This document shows, in pieces, positions 2,788 to 42,680 of a stretch of 64,000 nt of DNA (its first letter is position 1; each line of letters begins with the position of its first letter). Source of the stretch: Aquamicrobium aerolatum DSM 21857 (GTDB taxonomy: Bacteria > Pseudomonadota > Alphaproteobacteria > Rhizobiales > Rhizobiaceae); the NCBI RefSeq assembly GCF_900113935.1, contig NZ_FORF01000017.1:1-64000 (forward strand), given 5' to 3'. The notes beneath the pieces are model-generated. The model did not search any database. It saw only the letters and a list, made by a program, of their open reading frames with translations, and was not told where the DNA came from. The position numbers and the translations under genes were made by a program.

Positions 2788-3840
2788 CTACCAGAGTTCG
2801 TAGCGCAATCCGACTTTGATCTGATGTTCGCTTAGCCCCTTGCGCGAGTGAATACCGTCCTCGTTGATCACATAGTGGCGGACATTCGGTGCGCTGAGAT
2901 ATTGATAACCGACATCAATCTTTGTGTTTTCAGCAAGCTGATAGGCAACGCCGGCCGACAGCGAGTACATAAAGTTGTAGTCGGTCTTGCTGTAGTCTGC
3001 GGCCTGATGCCGTCCCGGGGTACCACGACAGTTGAAGTTGACCTCAGTCGTCGAGACGGCACTGCTGGTCGAGGTGGTCTCGCTCCAGCGTTCGTTTTCG
3101 CAGGCGCCTTCAGCACTGAACTTGGTGCTGGTGAACAGCAATCCGATGCCCGCTCCAACATAAGGCGTAAAACCGGAAATAGTACCGAGATCGACATATC
3201 CATTGGCCATGCCGTTCCATGCAGCTTTTTCAGCGGCGCCATAGACCATACAATCATTGCGCCAGTCGGCGTTGCTAATCGTATTGACCGAAGGCGCGCC
3301 GACGGGACTACCTGTGCTGTCAATTGACTGCACAGTGGTCGTGACATCTCGCGATCCCAGGCAGCCAAAGTCAGGCACCCGCGACAGAGCCGGGTCCATC
3401 GCATTGACAATGCTGTAGGGCTGCAGATAGCCCGCGCTCAGATGTGCGGACCCAGTGTAATTCTCCTTGCCGAGATAGCCGACGGTCAAATCGCCACGAA
3501 TATAGTCATTGAGGCGGTAACCGAAGCCAACGCTGCCATTGACTGGCCACACATCGGCACTGGCCGAGAAGAAATCGACCGGGCCAACCCAACCCAACCC
3601 AACAAGGTTGTTGTCAAACAGCGAATCGTCGACCGAGATCCGCGTGTCCTTGTGATTTTTCTTGAAAGCGTAGCTGACATCGCCGCGCAGATACCACCCC
3701 GAGCCAATTTCGACAGGCACCCATTCGGGCGCCTCTTCGATGAAGATCGGCGGATCATAGTCGGCTGCAATTGCCTGCGCGCTCGCCGTGATGGCCAGCG
3801 CTGCAACGCAGGAAGCGAAAAATCTGCTTTTGAGGCTCAT
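2788..3840 (-). CDS. Outer-membrane beta-barrel protein (Omp25/Omp31-like)
   Basis: This 350-residue protein has a Sec signal peptide (basic start, hydrophobic core, cleavage near AIAA-DYDPP) followed by an outer-membrane beta-barrel domain (PF13505 type). Alternating strands such as GSGWYLRGDVSYAF and GLRYELW, many Gly/Tyr/Asp, and a terminal aromatic residue (Trp) are what the BAM machinery recognises. It resembles the Omp25/Omp31 and related opacity-like proteins of Rhizobiales but is longer, with a Ser/Thr- and Cys-containing insert about residues 145-275 that is probably extracellular loops. I use the ATG at 3840, which has GGAG seven bases upstream, instead of the upstream ATG at 3867. 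A CtrA box lies 68 bases before the start. Confidence 0.8.
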   Translation of the reverse strand: MSLKSRFFASCVAALAITASAQAIAADYDPPIFIEEAPEWVPVEIGSGWYLRGDVSYAFKKNHKDTRISVDDSLFDNNLVGLGWVGPVDFFSASADVWPVNGSVGFGYRLNDYIRGDLTVGYLGKENYTGSAHLSAGYLQPYSIVNAMDPALSRVPDFGCLGSRDVTTTVQSIDSTGSPVGAPSVNTISNADWRNDCMVYGAAEKAAWNGMANGYVDLGTISGFTPYVGAGIGLLFTSTKFSAEGACENERWSETTSTSSAVSTTEVNFNCRGTPGRHQAADYSKTDYNFMYSLSAGVAYQLAENTKIDVGYQYLSAPNVRHYVINEDGIHSRKGLSEHQIKVGLRYELW

Positions 3841-3907
3841 CTGTCCACTCCAGAGAACGGCGCGCAAGCACCTGCCAGGATTTGATGAGCATTGTTAACT
3901 ATAGTCG

Positions 3908-3922
3908 TTAAACTGCAGTTAA
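3908..3922. promoter_or_regulatory. CtrA-type box TTAA-N7-TTAA
   Basis: TTAAACTGCAGTTAA matches the full CtrA consensus (TTAA, seven bases, TTAA) exactly. It sits 68 bases upstream of the outer-membrane protein start at 3840, a normal distance for a promoter-overlapping site. Confidence 0.6.
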
Positions 3923-4018: not shown

Positions 4019-4813
4019 TCAATTCAGAGCGTAGCGAATGCCCAGTTTCACGTCATGCGACGTGATCTTGCGAAAGTGCATCGGGTTATCGATGCTTCCG
4101 GGGCCGTCATAGGGCCTGATGTCACCTGATCGCGCATGGCCCAGATCAAGATAGCTGTAGCCAAGGTCGATGGTCATCCTGTCCGTGGCCTTGAAGCCGA
4201 CACCCGCATGAACCGCCCATGCCAGGTTCCATGTCGAGGCTGCATCGGCATAAGCCAGCGTCGGGGAGCCGCCGGGACCGGTGGTGCCGGCGTCGCGGAA
4301 CGAATGAATCGTATTACGGCTAGCGCCGATACCGGCACCAATATAGGGCACAACACCACGGAACTCGCCGAGATCTGCGTAGGCATTTGCCATCAGCAGC
4401 CATTCGGACTTCTTGGCAGTGTAGTTGTTGTATCGTGTGGTCGTGCCGTCCATCCAGGTATCAAGACCATGGAAGCCGACTTCACCGCGATACTCGACAA
4501 TACCGTCGACGCGCAGGAAGTCGTTCACCGCATAGCCGACACCGGCGCCAAACGTCGGGCCTGCCTCGAAATTCTTGTCCAGAACGTTCAGTCCGGTCGT
4601 CGTGTCGAACAACACATTGTACAGGCTGCCGACCTTCTGGTTCGACATGCCAATGTGCCCGCGCAAGTACCATCCGCCAAACTGTACCGGCTCCGGCGCG
4701 ACATATTCGATGACGGGGGGTTCGTACAAGTCAGCACCGACTGCCGGAACTGCGGCAGCGAAGGCCAGAGTAGCGACCGTCGTCAGCAGTTTGGCAAGCT
4801 TCAACATCATCAT
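4019..4813 (-). CDS. Outer-membrane beta-barrel protein, paralogue of the 2788 gene
   Basis: The 264-residue product has a signal peptide ending near VPAVGA-DLYEPP and an eight-strand-type outer-membrane beta barrel (PF13505). It shares with the neighbouring protein the proline-rich linker after the signal peptide (PPVIEYVAPEP), the strand FGGWYLRGHIGMS and a C-terminal strand LGIRYALN. It is therefore a divergent paralogue arranged in tandem. Three consecutive ATG codons occur at the start; I use the first of them (4813), since the further upstream ATG at 4828 would place charged residues outside the normal signal peptide. A CtrA box lies about 76 bases upstream. Likely a structural surface protein; no enzymatic residues are seen. 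Confidence 0.8.
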   Translation of the reverse strand: MMMLKLAKLLTTVATLAFAAAVPAVGADLYEPPVIEYVAPEPVQFGGWYLRGHIGMSNQKVGSLYNVLFDTTTGLNVLDKNFEAGPTFGAGVGYAVNDFLRVDGIVEYRGEVGFHGLDTWMDGTTTRYNNYTAKKSEWLLMANAYADLGEFRGVVPYIGAGIGASRNTIHSFRDAGTTGPGGSPTLAYADAASTWNLAWAVHAGVGFKATDRMTIDLGYSYLDLGHARSGDIRPYDGPGSIDNPMHFRKITSHDVKLGIRYALN

Positions 4814-4888
4814 TACCCCGGCATGCACCCACAGATCTGATCTGCACGGGCGACAGTTGATCCCAGTAAGGATAATAGAATGGAAAAG

Positions 4889-4903
4889 TTAAGCTCGACT
4901 TAA
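4889..4903. promoter_or_regulatory. CtrA-type box TTAA-N7-TTAA
   Basis: TTAAGCTCGACTTAA is an exact match to the CtrA full site and lies 76 bases upstream of the outer-membrane protein start at 4813. A further TTAA half-site follows at 4913-4916. The same arrangement precedes the paralogous gene at 3840. Confidence 0.6.
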
Positions 4904-22295: not shown

Positions 22296-22829
22296 TCAGT
22301 TGCGCCCAAATGCGGTGTGAAGAAGATTGATCTGGTCGGAAACCGGATTGCCACGGCGTACCGTGGTCGAGACGGCAGGTGCCATCGGATCGGTATCGAG
22401 ATCCTCATCGACGCGCCGCACCAGTGCCTGCAGTCGCAACGAGTGCTCGACGATCGAACGAAAATCGCCCGGCAATTCGACCCAGCCCGGCGTATCCTGT
22501 GGCGCCGACGCCGTGTCGAGGCGCACCTTGGTCTTTTCGGCAGCCACCTGGTCACGTGTCATCTCGCCGGCATTTGCCGCGCGCTGAAGCAACAACCACG
22601 ACGCAACCTGCATCAGCCGGGTGGTCAGGCGCATGGATTCTGCAGCGTAGAGCGTGGCGGCAATCCGTGACAGTTCCTTGGCCGCAACGCGGCCATCGCC
22701 ATCCAGATACTCGGCGGCGCGCTCTACCAGGCCCATGCCCTCATTGTAAAGGGGTTTGAACGAGTCGGTATAGACCCGCCTTTCGGCGAGCTTGATCGTG
22801 TTGCCGCTCTGGAAACCCTGCTCGTGCAT
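22296..22829 (-). CDS. rcdA: RcdA-type regulator of CtrA degradation (DUF1465)
   Basis: This 177-residue helical protein matches the DUF1465/RcdA family. RcdA is known from Caulobacter as an adaptor that delivers CtrA and other substrates to ClpXP at the G1-S transition. Conserved stretches include VERAAEYLDGDGR, LYAAESMRLTTRLMQVASWLLLQR and the C-terminal DQINLLHTAFG. The longer open frame running back to 23102 is non-coding leader; I start at ATG 22829, which gives the usual family N-terminus, although the ribosome-binding site is weak. A full CtrA box lies 123 bases upstream, consistent with feedback on the cell-cycle regulator. Confidence 0.85.
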   Translation of the reverse strand: MHEQGFQSGNTIKLAERRVYTDSFKPLYNEGMGLVERAAEYLDGDGRVAAKELSRIAATLYAAESMRLTTRLMQVASWLLLQRAANAGEMTRDQVAAEKTKVRLDTASAPQDTPGWVELPGDFRSIVEHSLRLQALVRRVDEDLDTDPMAPAVSTTVRRGNPVSDQINLLHTAFGRN

Positions 22830-22951: not shown

Positions 22952-22966
22952 TTAATGAAGGGTTAA
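22952..22966. promoter_or_regulatory. CtrA-type box TTAA-N7-TTAA upstream of rcdA
   Basis: TTAATGAAGGGTTAA matches the CtrA full site exactly. It lies between the terminator at 22997-23026 and the rcdA start, 123 bases upstream of the ATG, in the right place to control rcdA. Confidence 0.65.
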
Positions 22967-22994: not shown

Positions 22995-23026
22995 AAAACA
23001 AAAAAAGAGCCGCAAAAGGCGGCTCT
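22995..23026 (-). terminator. Rho-independent terminator
   Basis: AGAGCCGC-CTTTT-GCGGCTCT on the minus strand is followed by a run of seven T. It ends either the acyl-CoA synthetase mRNA or the candidate sRNA, or both. Confidence 0.9.
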
Positions 23027-23105
23027 CAGGAGTTAAACAGGGAGGCGTCAAACGGAGTGGCCAAGCCACTCGGTAAGAATCCAGATCACTGGATACCCAC
23101 AAATA
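22995..23105 (-). ncRNA. Candidate small regulatory RNA, about 105 nt
   Basis: Between the acyl-CoA synthetase and rcdA lies a self-contained unit on the minus strand. It has a CtrA box at 23119-23133, a perfect hairpin ATCCAG-TGAT-CTGGAT (23079-23094), a second perfect hairpin GAGTGGC-TTG-GCCACTC (23055-23071), a CU-rich single-stranded stretch with CCTCCCTG and CTCCTG that is complementary to ribosome-binding sites, and a strong intrinsic terminator (23006-23026 plus T-run). No coding frame with a start and ribosome-binding site fits. The 5' end near 23103 is inferred. It could instead be only the 3' untranslated region of the synthetase mRNA, since no other terminator precedes it. Confidence 0.5.
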
Positions 23106-23118
23106 TCACATATGAAGC

Positions 23119-23133
23119 TTAACCAAACCTTAA
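23119..23133. promoter_or_regulatory. CtrA-type box TTAA-N7-TTAA upstream of the candidate sRNA
   Basis: TTAACCAAACCTTAA is an exact full CtrA site. It lies inside the 3' gap after the acyl-CoA synthetase, where no protein gene begins within 250 bases on either strand except rcdA beyond a terminator. It is therefore best explained as the promoter site of the short transcript at 22995-23105. Confidence 0.55.
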
Positions 23134-23223
23134 CACGGTGACTGGCATTGCAGAAAAATGTGCCATCGGGAGACAGTCGCGCTGCTGACGGGCTCCATTT
23201 GAAGGGGGCATAAACACTCCGCC

Positions 23224-24864
23224 TCAAAGGCGCTTGGCCATCTCACGCAACACGAATTTCTGGATTTTTCCAGTCGAGGTCTTTGGGATCTCCACGAACA
23301 CGACCGTGCGTGGACATTTGAACCGCGCAAGCAGCGAGCGGCAATGCTCGATGATGTCTTCCTCGGTTGCCGTCTGGCCAGACTTGAGCTCGACATAGGC
23401 CACGGGCGTCTCGCCCCACTTGTCGTCGGCCCGCGCCACCACAGCACAGGATGAAACTGCCTTGTGCTTGTAGATCGCATCCTCGACCTCAATCGAGGAG
23501 ATATTCTCCCCGCCGGAGATGATGATATCCTTCGACCTGTCCTTGAGCTGGATATAGCCATCGGGATGCATGACGCCGAGGTCTCCGGAATGGAACCACC
23601 CGCCCGCAAATGCCTCTTCCGTGGCCGTCCGATTCTTGAGGTACCCCTTCATAACGATGTTGCCGCGCATCATCACTTCACCAATGGTCTCACCATCGGC
23701 GGGTGTTTCCTCCATTGTTATCGGATCGCGCACACTCAATCCGTCAAGGGCAGCGTAACGAACACCCTGGCGCGCCTTCTTCGAGTTGCGCGCGTCGCGC
23801 TCCAAACCGTCCCAATCGGAATGCCATTCATTGACCACCGCAGGACCATAGGTCTCGGTCAGGCCGTAAAGATGCGTGACTGCAAACCCGGCATCTGCCA
23901 TGCCAGCCAGAACAGCTTCAGGTGGCGGGGCAGCAGCCGTATTGAACGTCACGATCTGGTCAAAGCTGCGCTTCTCGTCATCCTTGGCGTTGATCAGGGC
24001 CGACATGACCACCGGCGCTCCACACAGATGGGTTACGCCATGGTCAGCAATGGCATCGAACATCGCCTTCGCCCGAACCCAGCGCAGGCAGACATGAGTG
24101 CCAGCGGTGATCGCGAGCGTCCAGGGAAAGCACCAGCCGTTGCAATGGAACATTGGCAACGTCCACAGATAGACCGGGTGTTTGCCCATCCCGGCATGAA
24201 CTGTGTTTGAAAAAGCCATCAGCGCCGCGCCGCGGTGATGATAGACGACCCCTTTCGGATTGCCCGTTGTGCCCGACGTATAGTTGAGCGCAATCGAATC
24301 CCATTCGTCGTCGGGCATCGACCACCGGAAATTCTCGTCGCCAGATTCGACGAACTCCTCATAGTCCAGCATTCCGATACGCTCACCCTTGCTGTAGGGC
24401 GCATCGACATCGAAGTCCGGGTCGTCATAGTCGATCACCAATGGCTTGACGCTTGTCAGCGTCAGCGCCTGCTTCACGACCGGCGAGAACTCCCGATCGA
24501 CGATCAGGATCTTCGTCTCGGCATGGTCAAGCTGAAAAGCAATGATTGCGGCATCAAGGCGCGTATTCAGGGAATGCAGCACGCCTTTGACCATCGGCAC
24601 CCCGAAATGGGCTTCCAGCATCGGCGGCGTATTCGACAGCATCACCGAGACGGTATCGCCCTTGCCGATACCACGCCGCGCCAGAGCGGAGGCGAGTTTC
24701 AGCGAGCGCCGCCAGAAATCTCGATAGCTGACGCGCTGCGCACCATGAATGATGGCAAGCTGATCGGGATAGGCCTTGGCCGCACGCTCCAAGTAACTGA
24801 GCGGCGTCAGAGGCTGAAAGTTGGCCGGGTTCTTGCCAAGATCTGTCTCGTAGGGATTGGTCAT
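23224..24864 (-). CDS. Acyl-CoA synthetase (AMP-forming), AlkK/DmdB type
   Basis: This 546-residue enzyme of the ANL superfamily activates a carboxylic acid with ATP and CoA. It shows the P-loop YTSGTTGNPKGV (about 180-191), the YGLTETYGP motif that binds adenylate, the hinge region FHSGDLGVMHPDGYIQLKDRSKD, and the C-terminal catalytic Lys in KTSTGKIQKF. Overall it resembles medium-chain (AlkK) and methylmercaptopropionate (DmdB) ligases; the acyl substrate cannot be assigned. The ATG at 24864 has GGAGG seven bases upstream, which decides the start. It lies 51 bases downstream of a TSUP transporter gene on the same strand. Confidence 0.88.
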   Translation of the reverse strand: MTNPYETDLGKNPANFQPLTPLSYLERAAKAYPDQLAIIHGAQRVSYRDFWRRSLKLASALARRGIGKGDTVSVMLSNTPPMLEAHFGVPMVKGVLHSLNTRLDAAIIAFQLDHAETKILIVDREFSPVVKQALTLTSVKPLVIDYDDPDFDVDAPYSKGERIGMLDYEEFVESGDENFRWSMPDDEWDSIALNYTSGTTGNPKGVVYHHRGAALMAFSNTVHAGMGKHPVYLWTLPMFHCNGWCFPWTLAITAGTHVCLRWVRAKAMFDAIADHGVTHLCGAPVVMSALINAKDDEKRSFDQIVTFNTAAAPPPEAVLAGMADAGFAVTHLYGLTETYGPAVVNEWHSDWDGLERDARNSKKARQGVRYAALDGLSVRDPITMEETPADGETIGEVMMRGNIVMKGYLKNRTATEEAFAGGWFHSGDLGVMHPDGYIQLKDRSKDIIISGGENISSIEVEDAIYKHKAVSSCAVVARADDKWGETPVAYVELKSGQTATEEDIIEHCRSLLARFKCPRTVVFVEIPKTSTGKIQKFVLREMAKRL

Positions 24865-42406: not shown

Positions 42407-42499
42407 GGGCGATGAACTGGCCAGTACCAGCAGGACAGAAAAGAACAGTAGCGATCCACGACGACCGATGTCGCGGTTGATCCCGGTGGCCTACAAAGT

Positions 42500-42680
42500 A
42501 GGTGGGCGCCGTGTGTCCGAACCCACGGGTTCGGACAGGGACAGCTCCCTAAGGATCAGTAAGGCCCCGGGGAAGTGTTGCTCCTGTCGAGAAGCGCAGA
42601 TCGCTACTGGCGAATATAGGAGGGTAAAGGCATGTGCGCCAGTGGGCATTTGCCTCCCACACGCCGCATCGCCCATCCTT
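42500..42680 (-). ncRNA. ssrS: Probable 6S RNA
   Basis: 6S RNA mimics an open promoter and binds sigma-70 RNA polymerase. The evidence is position (just upstream of 5-formyl-THF cyclo-ligase, same strand) and shape. On the minus strand GGATGGGCG (42670-42678) and GCGTGT near 42658-42664 can pair with ACACGGCGCCCACC (42501-42514) to close a long rod. GTCCGAACCC-GTG-GGTTCGGAC (42514-42536) is a strong internal hairpin beside the expected central bubble. The end sequence CACCTACTTTGTAGG recalls alphaproteobacterial 6S RNAs. Boundaries are approximate. Confidence 0.55.

Follow-up and report, generated by a model that had tools for sequence, protein, structure and literature searches.

A BjrC1505-family small RNA gene with a conserved CtrA box beside rcdA in Aquamicrobium aerolatum and other Alphaproteobacteria

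Results

The locus between the acyl-CoA synthetase gene and rcdA

The stretch of DNA analysed here, called the window throughout, comprises 64,000 nucleotides of the Aquamicrobium aerolatum genome. On its minus strand, rcdA (DUF1465, PF07323, E = 1e-49) occupies positions 22296–22829 with its start at 22829, and the upstream neighbour, likewise on the minus strand, is an acyl-CoA synthetase gene (AMP-binding domain, 23224–24861) which the neighbourhood count given below places outside the unit. An Rfam scan of the window located in the gap a minus-strand match to RF02356 (BjrC1505) at 23140–23000, which scores 70.3 bits against a cut-off of 50 and spans model positions 1–140, the full length. 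Accordingly, the RNA is not new but belongs to a family already described. BjrC1505 was reportedly described as a Bradyrhizobium japonicum sRNA by Madhugiri et al. in 2012, in a study said to have traced the family in Bradyrhizobium and Rhodopseudomonas and to have detected its expression by Northern blot, with no function assigned. A link to CtrA or rcdA, or a function, for BjrC1505/RF02356 was not found in the literature searched. What is novel is thus the regulation and context of BjrC1505, the RNA family itself being already known. Elsewhere in the window, a 6S RNA (RF00013, 78.6 bits) lies at 42449–42605 on the minus strand.

The predicted transcript of about 96–99 nt (22999–23097, minus strand) was delimited by the Rfam match, folding and covariation, with a putative start at 23097–23094 and an end at the U run. 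It consists of hairpin 1 (AUCCAG-UGAU-CUGGAU, 23079–23094), hairpin 2 (GAGUGGC-UUG-GCCACUC, 23055–23071), a CU-rich linker (UUUGACGCCUCCCUGUUUAACUCCU, about 23028–23052) that is unpaired in the fold and constitutes a candidate pairing region, and an intrinsic terminator with a 9-bp hairpin followed by seven U residues (22999–23027), all on the minus strand. The 98-nt RNA has a minimum free energy of −36.6 kcal/mol compared to −20.2 kcal/mol in shuffles (z = −5.6, with none of 200 shuffles as good). A first-pass annotation of this DNA had described two perfect hairpins on the minus strand after the CtrA box, which sequence, folding and covariation bear out, followed by an unpaired CU-rich segment with CCTCCCTG and CTCCTG, both of which are present in the linker, and by a strong terminator, which is the structure at 23027–22999. 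Its remark that no protein start follows the box before the terminator holds for ATG, but not for TTG, since a mechanically called TTG ORF (23102–22296), in frame with rcdA, runs through the region. The linker also contains GACGCCUCCCUGUUUAACUCCU, and GACGCCUCCCUGUU (23049–23036) shows the highest conservation within the family, being nearly invariant, other orders included.

Upstream of the RNA, the exact TTAA-N7-TTAA site annotated at 23119 was confirmed at 23119–23133 (minus strand) with a spacing of 7; it reads TTAA-GGTTTGG-TTAA and is referred to as box 1. A further exact match, box 2 (TTAACCCTTCATTAA, 22952–22966, minus strand), lies between the terminator and rcdA and is missing from the first-pass annotation. 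De novo motif discovery in alphaproteobacteria has given TTAA-N7-TTAA for CtrA (PMC12403871). The 64-kb window holds four exact sites where 0.11 would be expected, and the whole 3.64-Mb genome holds 26. Given this small number of genome sites, the presence of a second one before rcdA and the recurrence of the box upstream of the RNA, box 1 is not a chance match. The two other exact sites in the window (3908–3922 and 4889–4903) each lie upstream of a minus-strand gene for an outer-membrane beta-barrel-like protein (2788–3867 and 4019–4828), and these proteins could possibly be under CtrA control.

Distribution, covariation and gene neighbourhood

Across the order, Hyphomicrobiales, the RF02356 RNA was found in 245 of 297 genomes, nearly always in single copy with few exceptions, while in a class-wide sample 30 of 289 genomes gave a match at an E value of 0.001 or better; control genomes gave no RF02356 match in the same search. 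Alignments and pair counts show that the gap RNA shares with the BjrC1505 family the same two hairpins, the GACGCCUCCCUGUU linker and the GC-rich terminator. Among 61 order-wide sequences, the three helices, the terminator being helix 3, are paired in 99.4% of cells and double changes occur at 12 of 19 pairs, against 4.0 in shuffles and at most 4 in slid controls. This covariation is carried by hairpins 1 and 2. Rhizobium and Ensifer possess a diverged form of the RNA that retains CUCCCUGUU, the terminator and the box.

In one lineage (G705, locus L313 on contig C6) and a related genome (G504, contig C10) the sRNA is tandemly duplicated, the copies lying ~200 bp apart, and both copies examined in G705 have their own exact CtrA box. 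Pseudaminobacter arsenicus (L101) has no sRNA copy, an apparent loss, and in Aquibium carbonis (L110) the sRNA is degenerate, apparently by decay; box 2 and rcdA remain in both species, which makes them natural test cases for the function of the sRNA.

Of 70 order-wide loci, 69 have rcdA just downstream of the RNA in the same orientation, with about 100–470 nt between the terminator and the rcdA start. Only 2 of 73 loci have the acyl-CoA synthetase gene upstream, the RNA and the box persisting in the others, and this gene is an incidental neighbour. Most Rhizobiaceae sensu lato carry an exact box 2, whose sequence varies elsewhere. Three loci where rcdA is not directly adjacent (L280, L278 and L060) often have a quinone-oxidoreductase-like gene in the neighbourhood, and that of L280 and L278 includes a protein resembling DUF1013, which we take to be TrcR-like.

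The CtrA box accompanies the RNA

A box of at least 7/8 lies upstream of the RNA in 72 of 73 order-wide loci, compared to 0.2% of same-size control windows from the same loci, and its position is mostly 75–81 nt before the GUUUGACGCC core. Because the RF02356 model itself spans the box, this count could be circular and two further tests were made. In one of them rcdA served as bait in named genomes, yielding 80 loci (Mesorhizobium, Aquamicrobium, Nitratireductor, Phyllobacterium, Brucella, Rhizobium and Ensifer sesbaniae being among those represented). The RNA was present in 78 or 79 of the 80, by pattern or by model, and the RNA together with a box of at least 7/8 at the expected place in at least 72. 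The other test employed a covariance model, R1, made of hairpin 2, the linker and the terminator only, with the box and hairpin 1 excluded. Of 385 class-wide genomes searched with R1, 87 gave matches at an E value of 0.001 or better. In other orders, a box of at least 7/8 stands upstream in 17 of 21 matches unused in model building, against 0.24% in controls; the R1 training set included loci first found with RF02356, the tested matches being different loci. The box is likewise present in all 19 testable Rfam matches from other orders. Many families have TTTA as their first half-site (7/8), and a few loci show a weak box or none (4 of the 21 R1 matches from other orders). The hairpins covary across the order and the box is conserved there and in other orders, where a lack of conservation would have told against the first-pass reading.

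Promoter anatomy

A position logo of the 73 loci, aligned on the box, gives 1.0–2.0 bits per position for the half-sites and mostly 0.1–0.4 bits for the spacer, its first and last base excepted. The box is followed by GCTTTC and then by a −10-like element, TATnACT, starting 26 nt from the beginning of the box; the corresponding putative element of A. aerolatum is GATATTT (23101–23107, minus strand). Conserved half-sites, a variable spacer and a −10-like element are typical of a promoter with a protein-binding site, not of a paired RNA, and for this reason the first 35–40 positions of RF02356 are probably promoter DNA. The 5′ third of the BjrC1505 model resembles promoter DNA, and many 5′ pairs of the model are disrupted in the window match. 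Positions 1 to about 38 of RF02356 appear to take in promoter DNA together with the CtrA box, and the boundaries of the model may need revision.

The transcription start was first placed near 23103, whereas the promoter logo favours a predicted start near 23097–23094, within ~3 bases of hairpin 1. Counted from this predicted start, the box has its 5′ end at about −36 to −39. Caulobacter promoters with a full CtrA motif whose 5′ nucleotide is near −35 are activated in predivisional cells; where CtrA represses, its sites cover the −10 region (PMC4287350). With the predicted start, box 1 would be placed as in the Caulobacter full-motif activator class.

Potential targets of the linker

A conserved linker of anti-Shine–Dalgarno type that stays unpaired suggests that the RNA pairs with ribosome-binding sites, in the manner of EcpR1 and CcnA. 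The RBS-type pattern ACAGGGAGG-N-ATG has six matches in the A. aerolatum genome, among them genes that by eye were named as encoding a cytochrome c, a TAXI-type binding protein, an amidase and a PIG-L deacetylase. Order-wide, CAGGGAGGCGTC-N-ATG has 78 matches against 2 for the reversed pattern, a total that is inflated by natural Shine–Dalgarno sites and includes several matches to the antisense strand of the sRNA itself. No conserved target emerged order-wide, as no CAGGGAGGCGTC-N-ATG gene recurs beyond one family; perfect linker complements just before start codons belong to lineage-specific genes, some of them for transport or exported proteins. As conserved targets, ctrA and gcrA were rejected, their 5′ regions giving duplex energies of −20.0 and −21.3 kcal/mol compared to −19.6 and −20.3 kcal/mol for flank controls (SD ~3.5). 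A search elsewhere in the genome for the long perfect complement ACAGGGAGGCGT returned the sRNA itself as sole match.

Discussion

The gap between rcdA and the acyl-CoA synthetase gene probably contains a BjrC1505-family gene with its own CtrA-activated promoter, whose product would be a trans-acting sRNA masking ribosome-binding sites with its linker and co-controlled with rcdA. An sRNA beside rcdA driven by a CtrA box had been the proposal of the first-pass annotation, and it gains support from the fixed distance of the box, the covarying hairpins and the near-constant rcdA neighbour. Phosphorylated CtrA would bind box 1, which overlaps the predicted −35 region, and turn on transcription when CtrA levels are high. 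The RNA of ~97 nt would end at its own terminator and act in trans, its unpaired GACGCCUCCCUGUU linker pairing with purine-rich ribosome-binding sites and thereby lowering translation of the targets. The sRNA would be co-controlled with rcdA, which in Rhizobiaceae has its own CtrA box, and so CtrA would switch on both the adaptor promoting CtrA proteolysis and an RNA regulator.

Published data on CtrA at rcdA are compatible with this. In S. meliloti, CtrA ChIP-seq gives a peak at the rcdA promoter while CtrA depletion leaves rcdA mRNA unchanged (PMC4433202), and in three agrobacteria rcdA has several mapped starts, with CtrA sites further upstream than in Caulobacter (PMC10469942). Both observations would be expected if the interval from box 1 to rcdA held an RNA gene under CtrA control. 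Taken at the level of the gene, the peak and the starts may instead belong to box 2.

The near-constant position of rcdA directly downstream, at about 100–470 nt from the terminator, would also be explained if the RNA were the 5′ leader of rcdA, with transcription from box 1 proceeding toward rcdA, the terminator acting as an attenuator and the short RNA as an abortive product. Outside Rhizobiaceae sensu lato box 2 is poorly conserved, so that rcdA there might depend on read-through. However, for about nine Rfam matches and eleven R1 matches from other orders, mostly with a box, no rcdA is present in the flank examined, and an RNA and box without a nearby rcdA argue against a mere rcdA leader. 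In addition, rcdA of Rhizobiaceae has its own exact CtrA box past the terminator, no alternative antiterminator pairing was seen, and rcdA mRNA in S. meliloti is unchanged on CtrA depletion (PMC4433202). We consider this explanation rather unlikely as a general one, although a leader role in some lineages is possible. Still harder to sustain is the alternative offered with the first-pass annotation, which takes the RNA for the 3′ UTR of the acyl-CoA synthetase mRNA and the CtrA box for a chance match. The RNA does lie on the same strand, 90 nt past the synthetase stop, with only a weak terminator-like site between them. Yet the synthetase gene is upstream in just 2 of 73 loci, with RNA and box staying in the rest, and the conservation of the box is far above chance, which makes this reading highly implausible. 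The RNA thus appears to be neither merely an rcdA leader nor a synthetase 3′ end.

The role of the box itself leaves room for two other explanations. Activation by CtrA is a prediction from sequence, and CtrA also represses promoters, while SciP and MucR share CtrA promoters (PMC4287350). A genuine sRNA might therefore carry in TTAA-N7-TTAA a CtrA repressor site, or a site read by SciP or MucR, and not be activated by CtrA. A box with a predicted position of about −36 to −39 would nevertheless fit the activator class and not the repressing sites over the −10 region, and the motif is the one recovered de novo as that of CtrA (PMC12403871); we regard a repressor or another protein as improbable here. 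That the RF02356 model begins upstream of the box could also mean that TTAA-N7-TTAA is part of the RNA and conserved for its structure. This is very unlikely considering that many of the model's 5′ pairs are broken in the window match, that the half-sites and not the spacer are conserved, as for a protein site, and that covariation sits in hairpins 1 and 2.

The proposed CtrA-activated sRNA has parallels in other alphaproteobacterial RNAs. CcnA of Caulobacter is also a non-coding RNA with a predicted CtrA site and a positive link to CtrA, and its C-rich loop pairs near ribosome-binding sites, comparable to the action proposed here; CcnA, which has a CCCC loop A, differs, by description and locus context, in being 182 nt long, located at the replication origin and directed at ctrA and gcrA, and its authors did not clearly detect a homolog in S. 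meliloti (PMC8959179). EcpR1 of S. meliloti, likewise a widely conserved rhizobial sRNA, represses cell-cycle mRNAs with which it pairs via a conserved GC-rich loop, but lies downstream of divK-pleD next to rpmG and has a sigma-70 promoter under stringent control, with no CtrA box reported (PMC4414408). Homology with EcpR1 was rejected, the gap RNA being flanked by the acyl-CoA synthetase gene and rcdA instead of divK-pleD/rpmG. Homology with GspR, an S. meliloti sRNA also acting on the CtrA circuit, was dismissed on the different genomic context; GspR is confined to Sinorhizobium, lies between SMc03844 and SMc03845 and has no known promoter motif (PMC5928217). The MmgR/suhB family (RF00519) similarly combines a hairpin, a CCUCCC-type linker and a terminator; this resemblance is weak and sub-threshold, and membership was rejected at 20.2 bits in the window against a cut-off of 41.

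BjrC1505 thus gains as a well-supported property, deduced from comparison of genomes, a conserved linkage to a CtrA box and, over most of its range, to rcdA. A CtrA box that goes with the RNA gene almost everywhere in the Alphaproteobacteria points to an ancient RNA branch of the CtrA network that has been overlooked. We give about even chances to the broader idea that BjrC1505 is an ancestral class-wide CtrA-activated sRNA, retained from Hyphomicrobiales to other alphaproteobacterial orders and usually paired with rcdA, that forms a post-transcriptional arm of the CtrA circuit. If true, it would explain the presence of CtrA at the S. meliloti rcdA upstream region without an effect on rcdA mRNA. 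CtrA controls the cell cycle and motility of Alphaproteobacteria as well as the host-associated life of the pathogens and symbionts among them, and protein genes make up, to our knowledge, nearly all of its outputs. An sRNA that is conserved, has a CtrA box and is encoded next to a CtrA-degradation adaptor would give this network a candidate RNA output of very wide conservation. With relatives of the sRNA in the tractable genera Rhizobium, Ensifer and Mesorhizobium, the role of CtrA binding at rcdA becomes directly testable through the sRNA.
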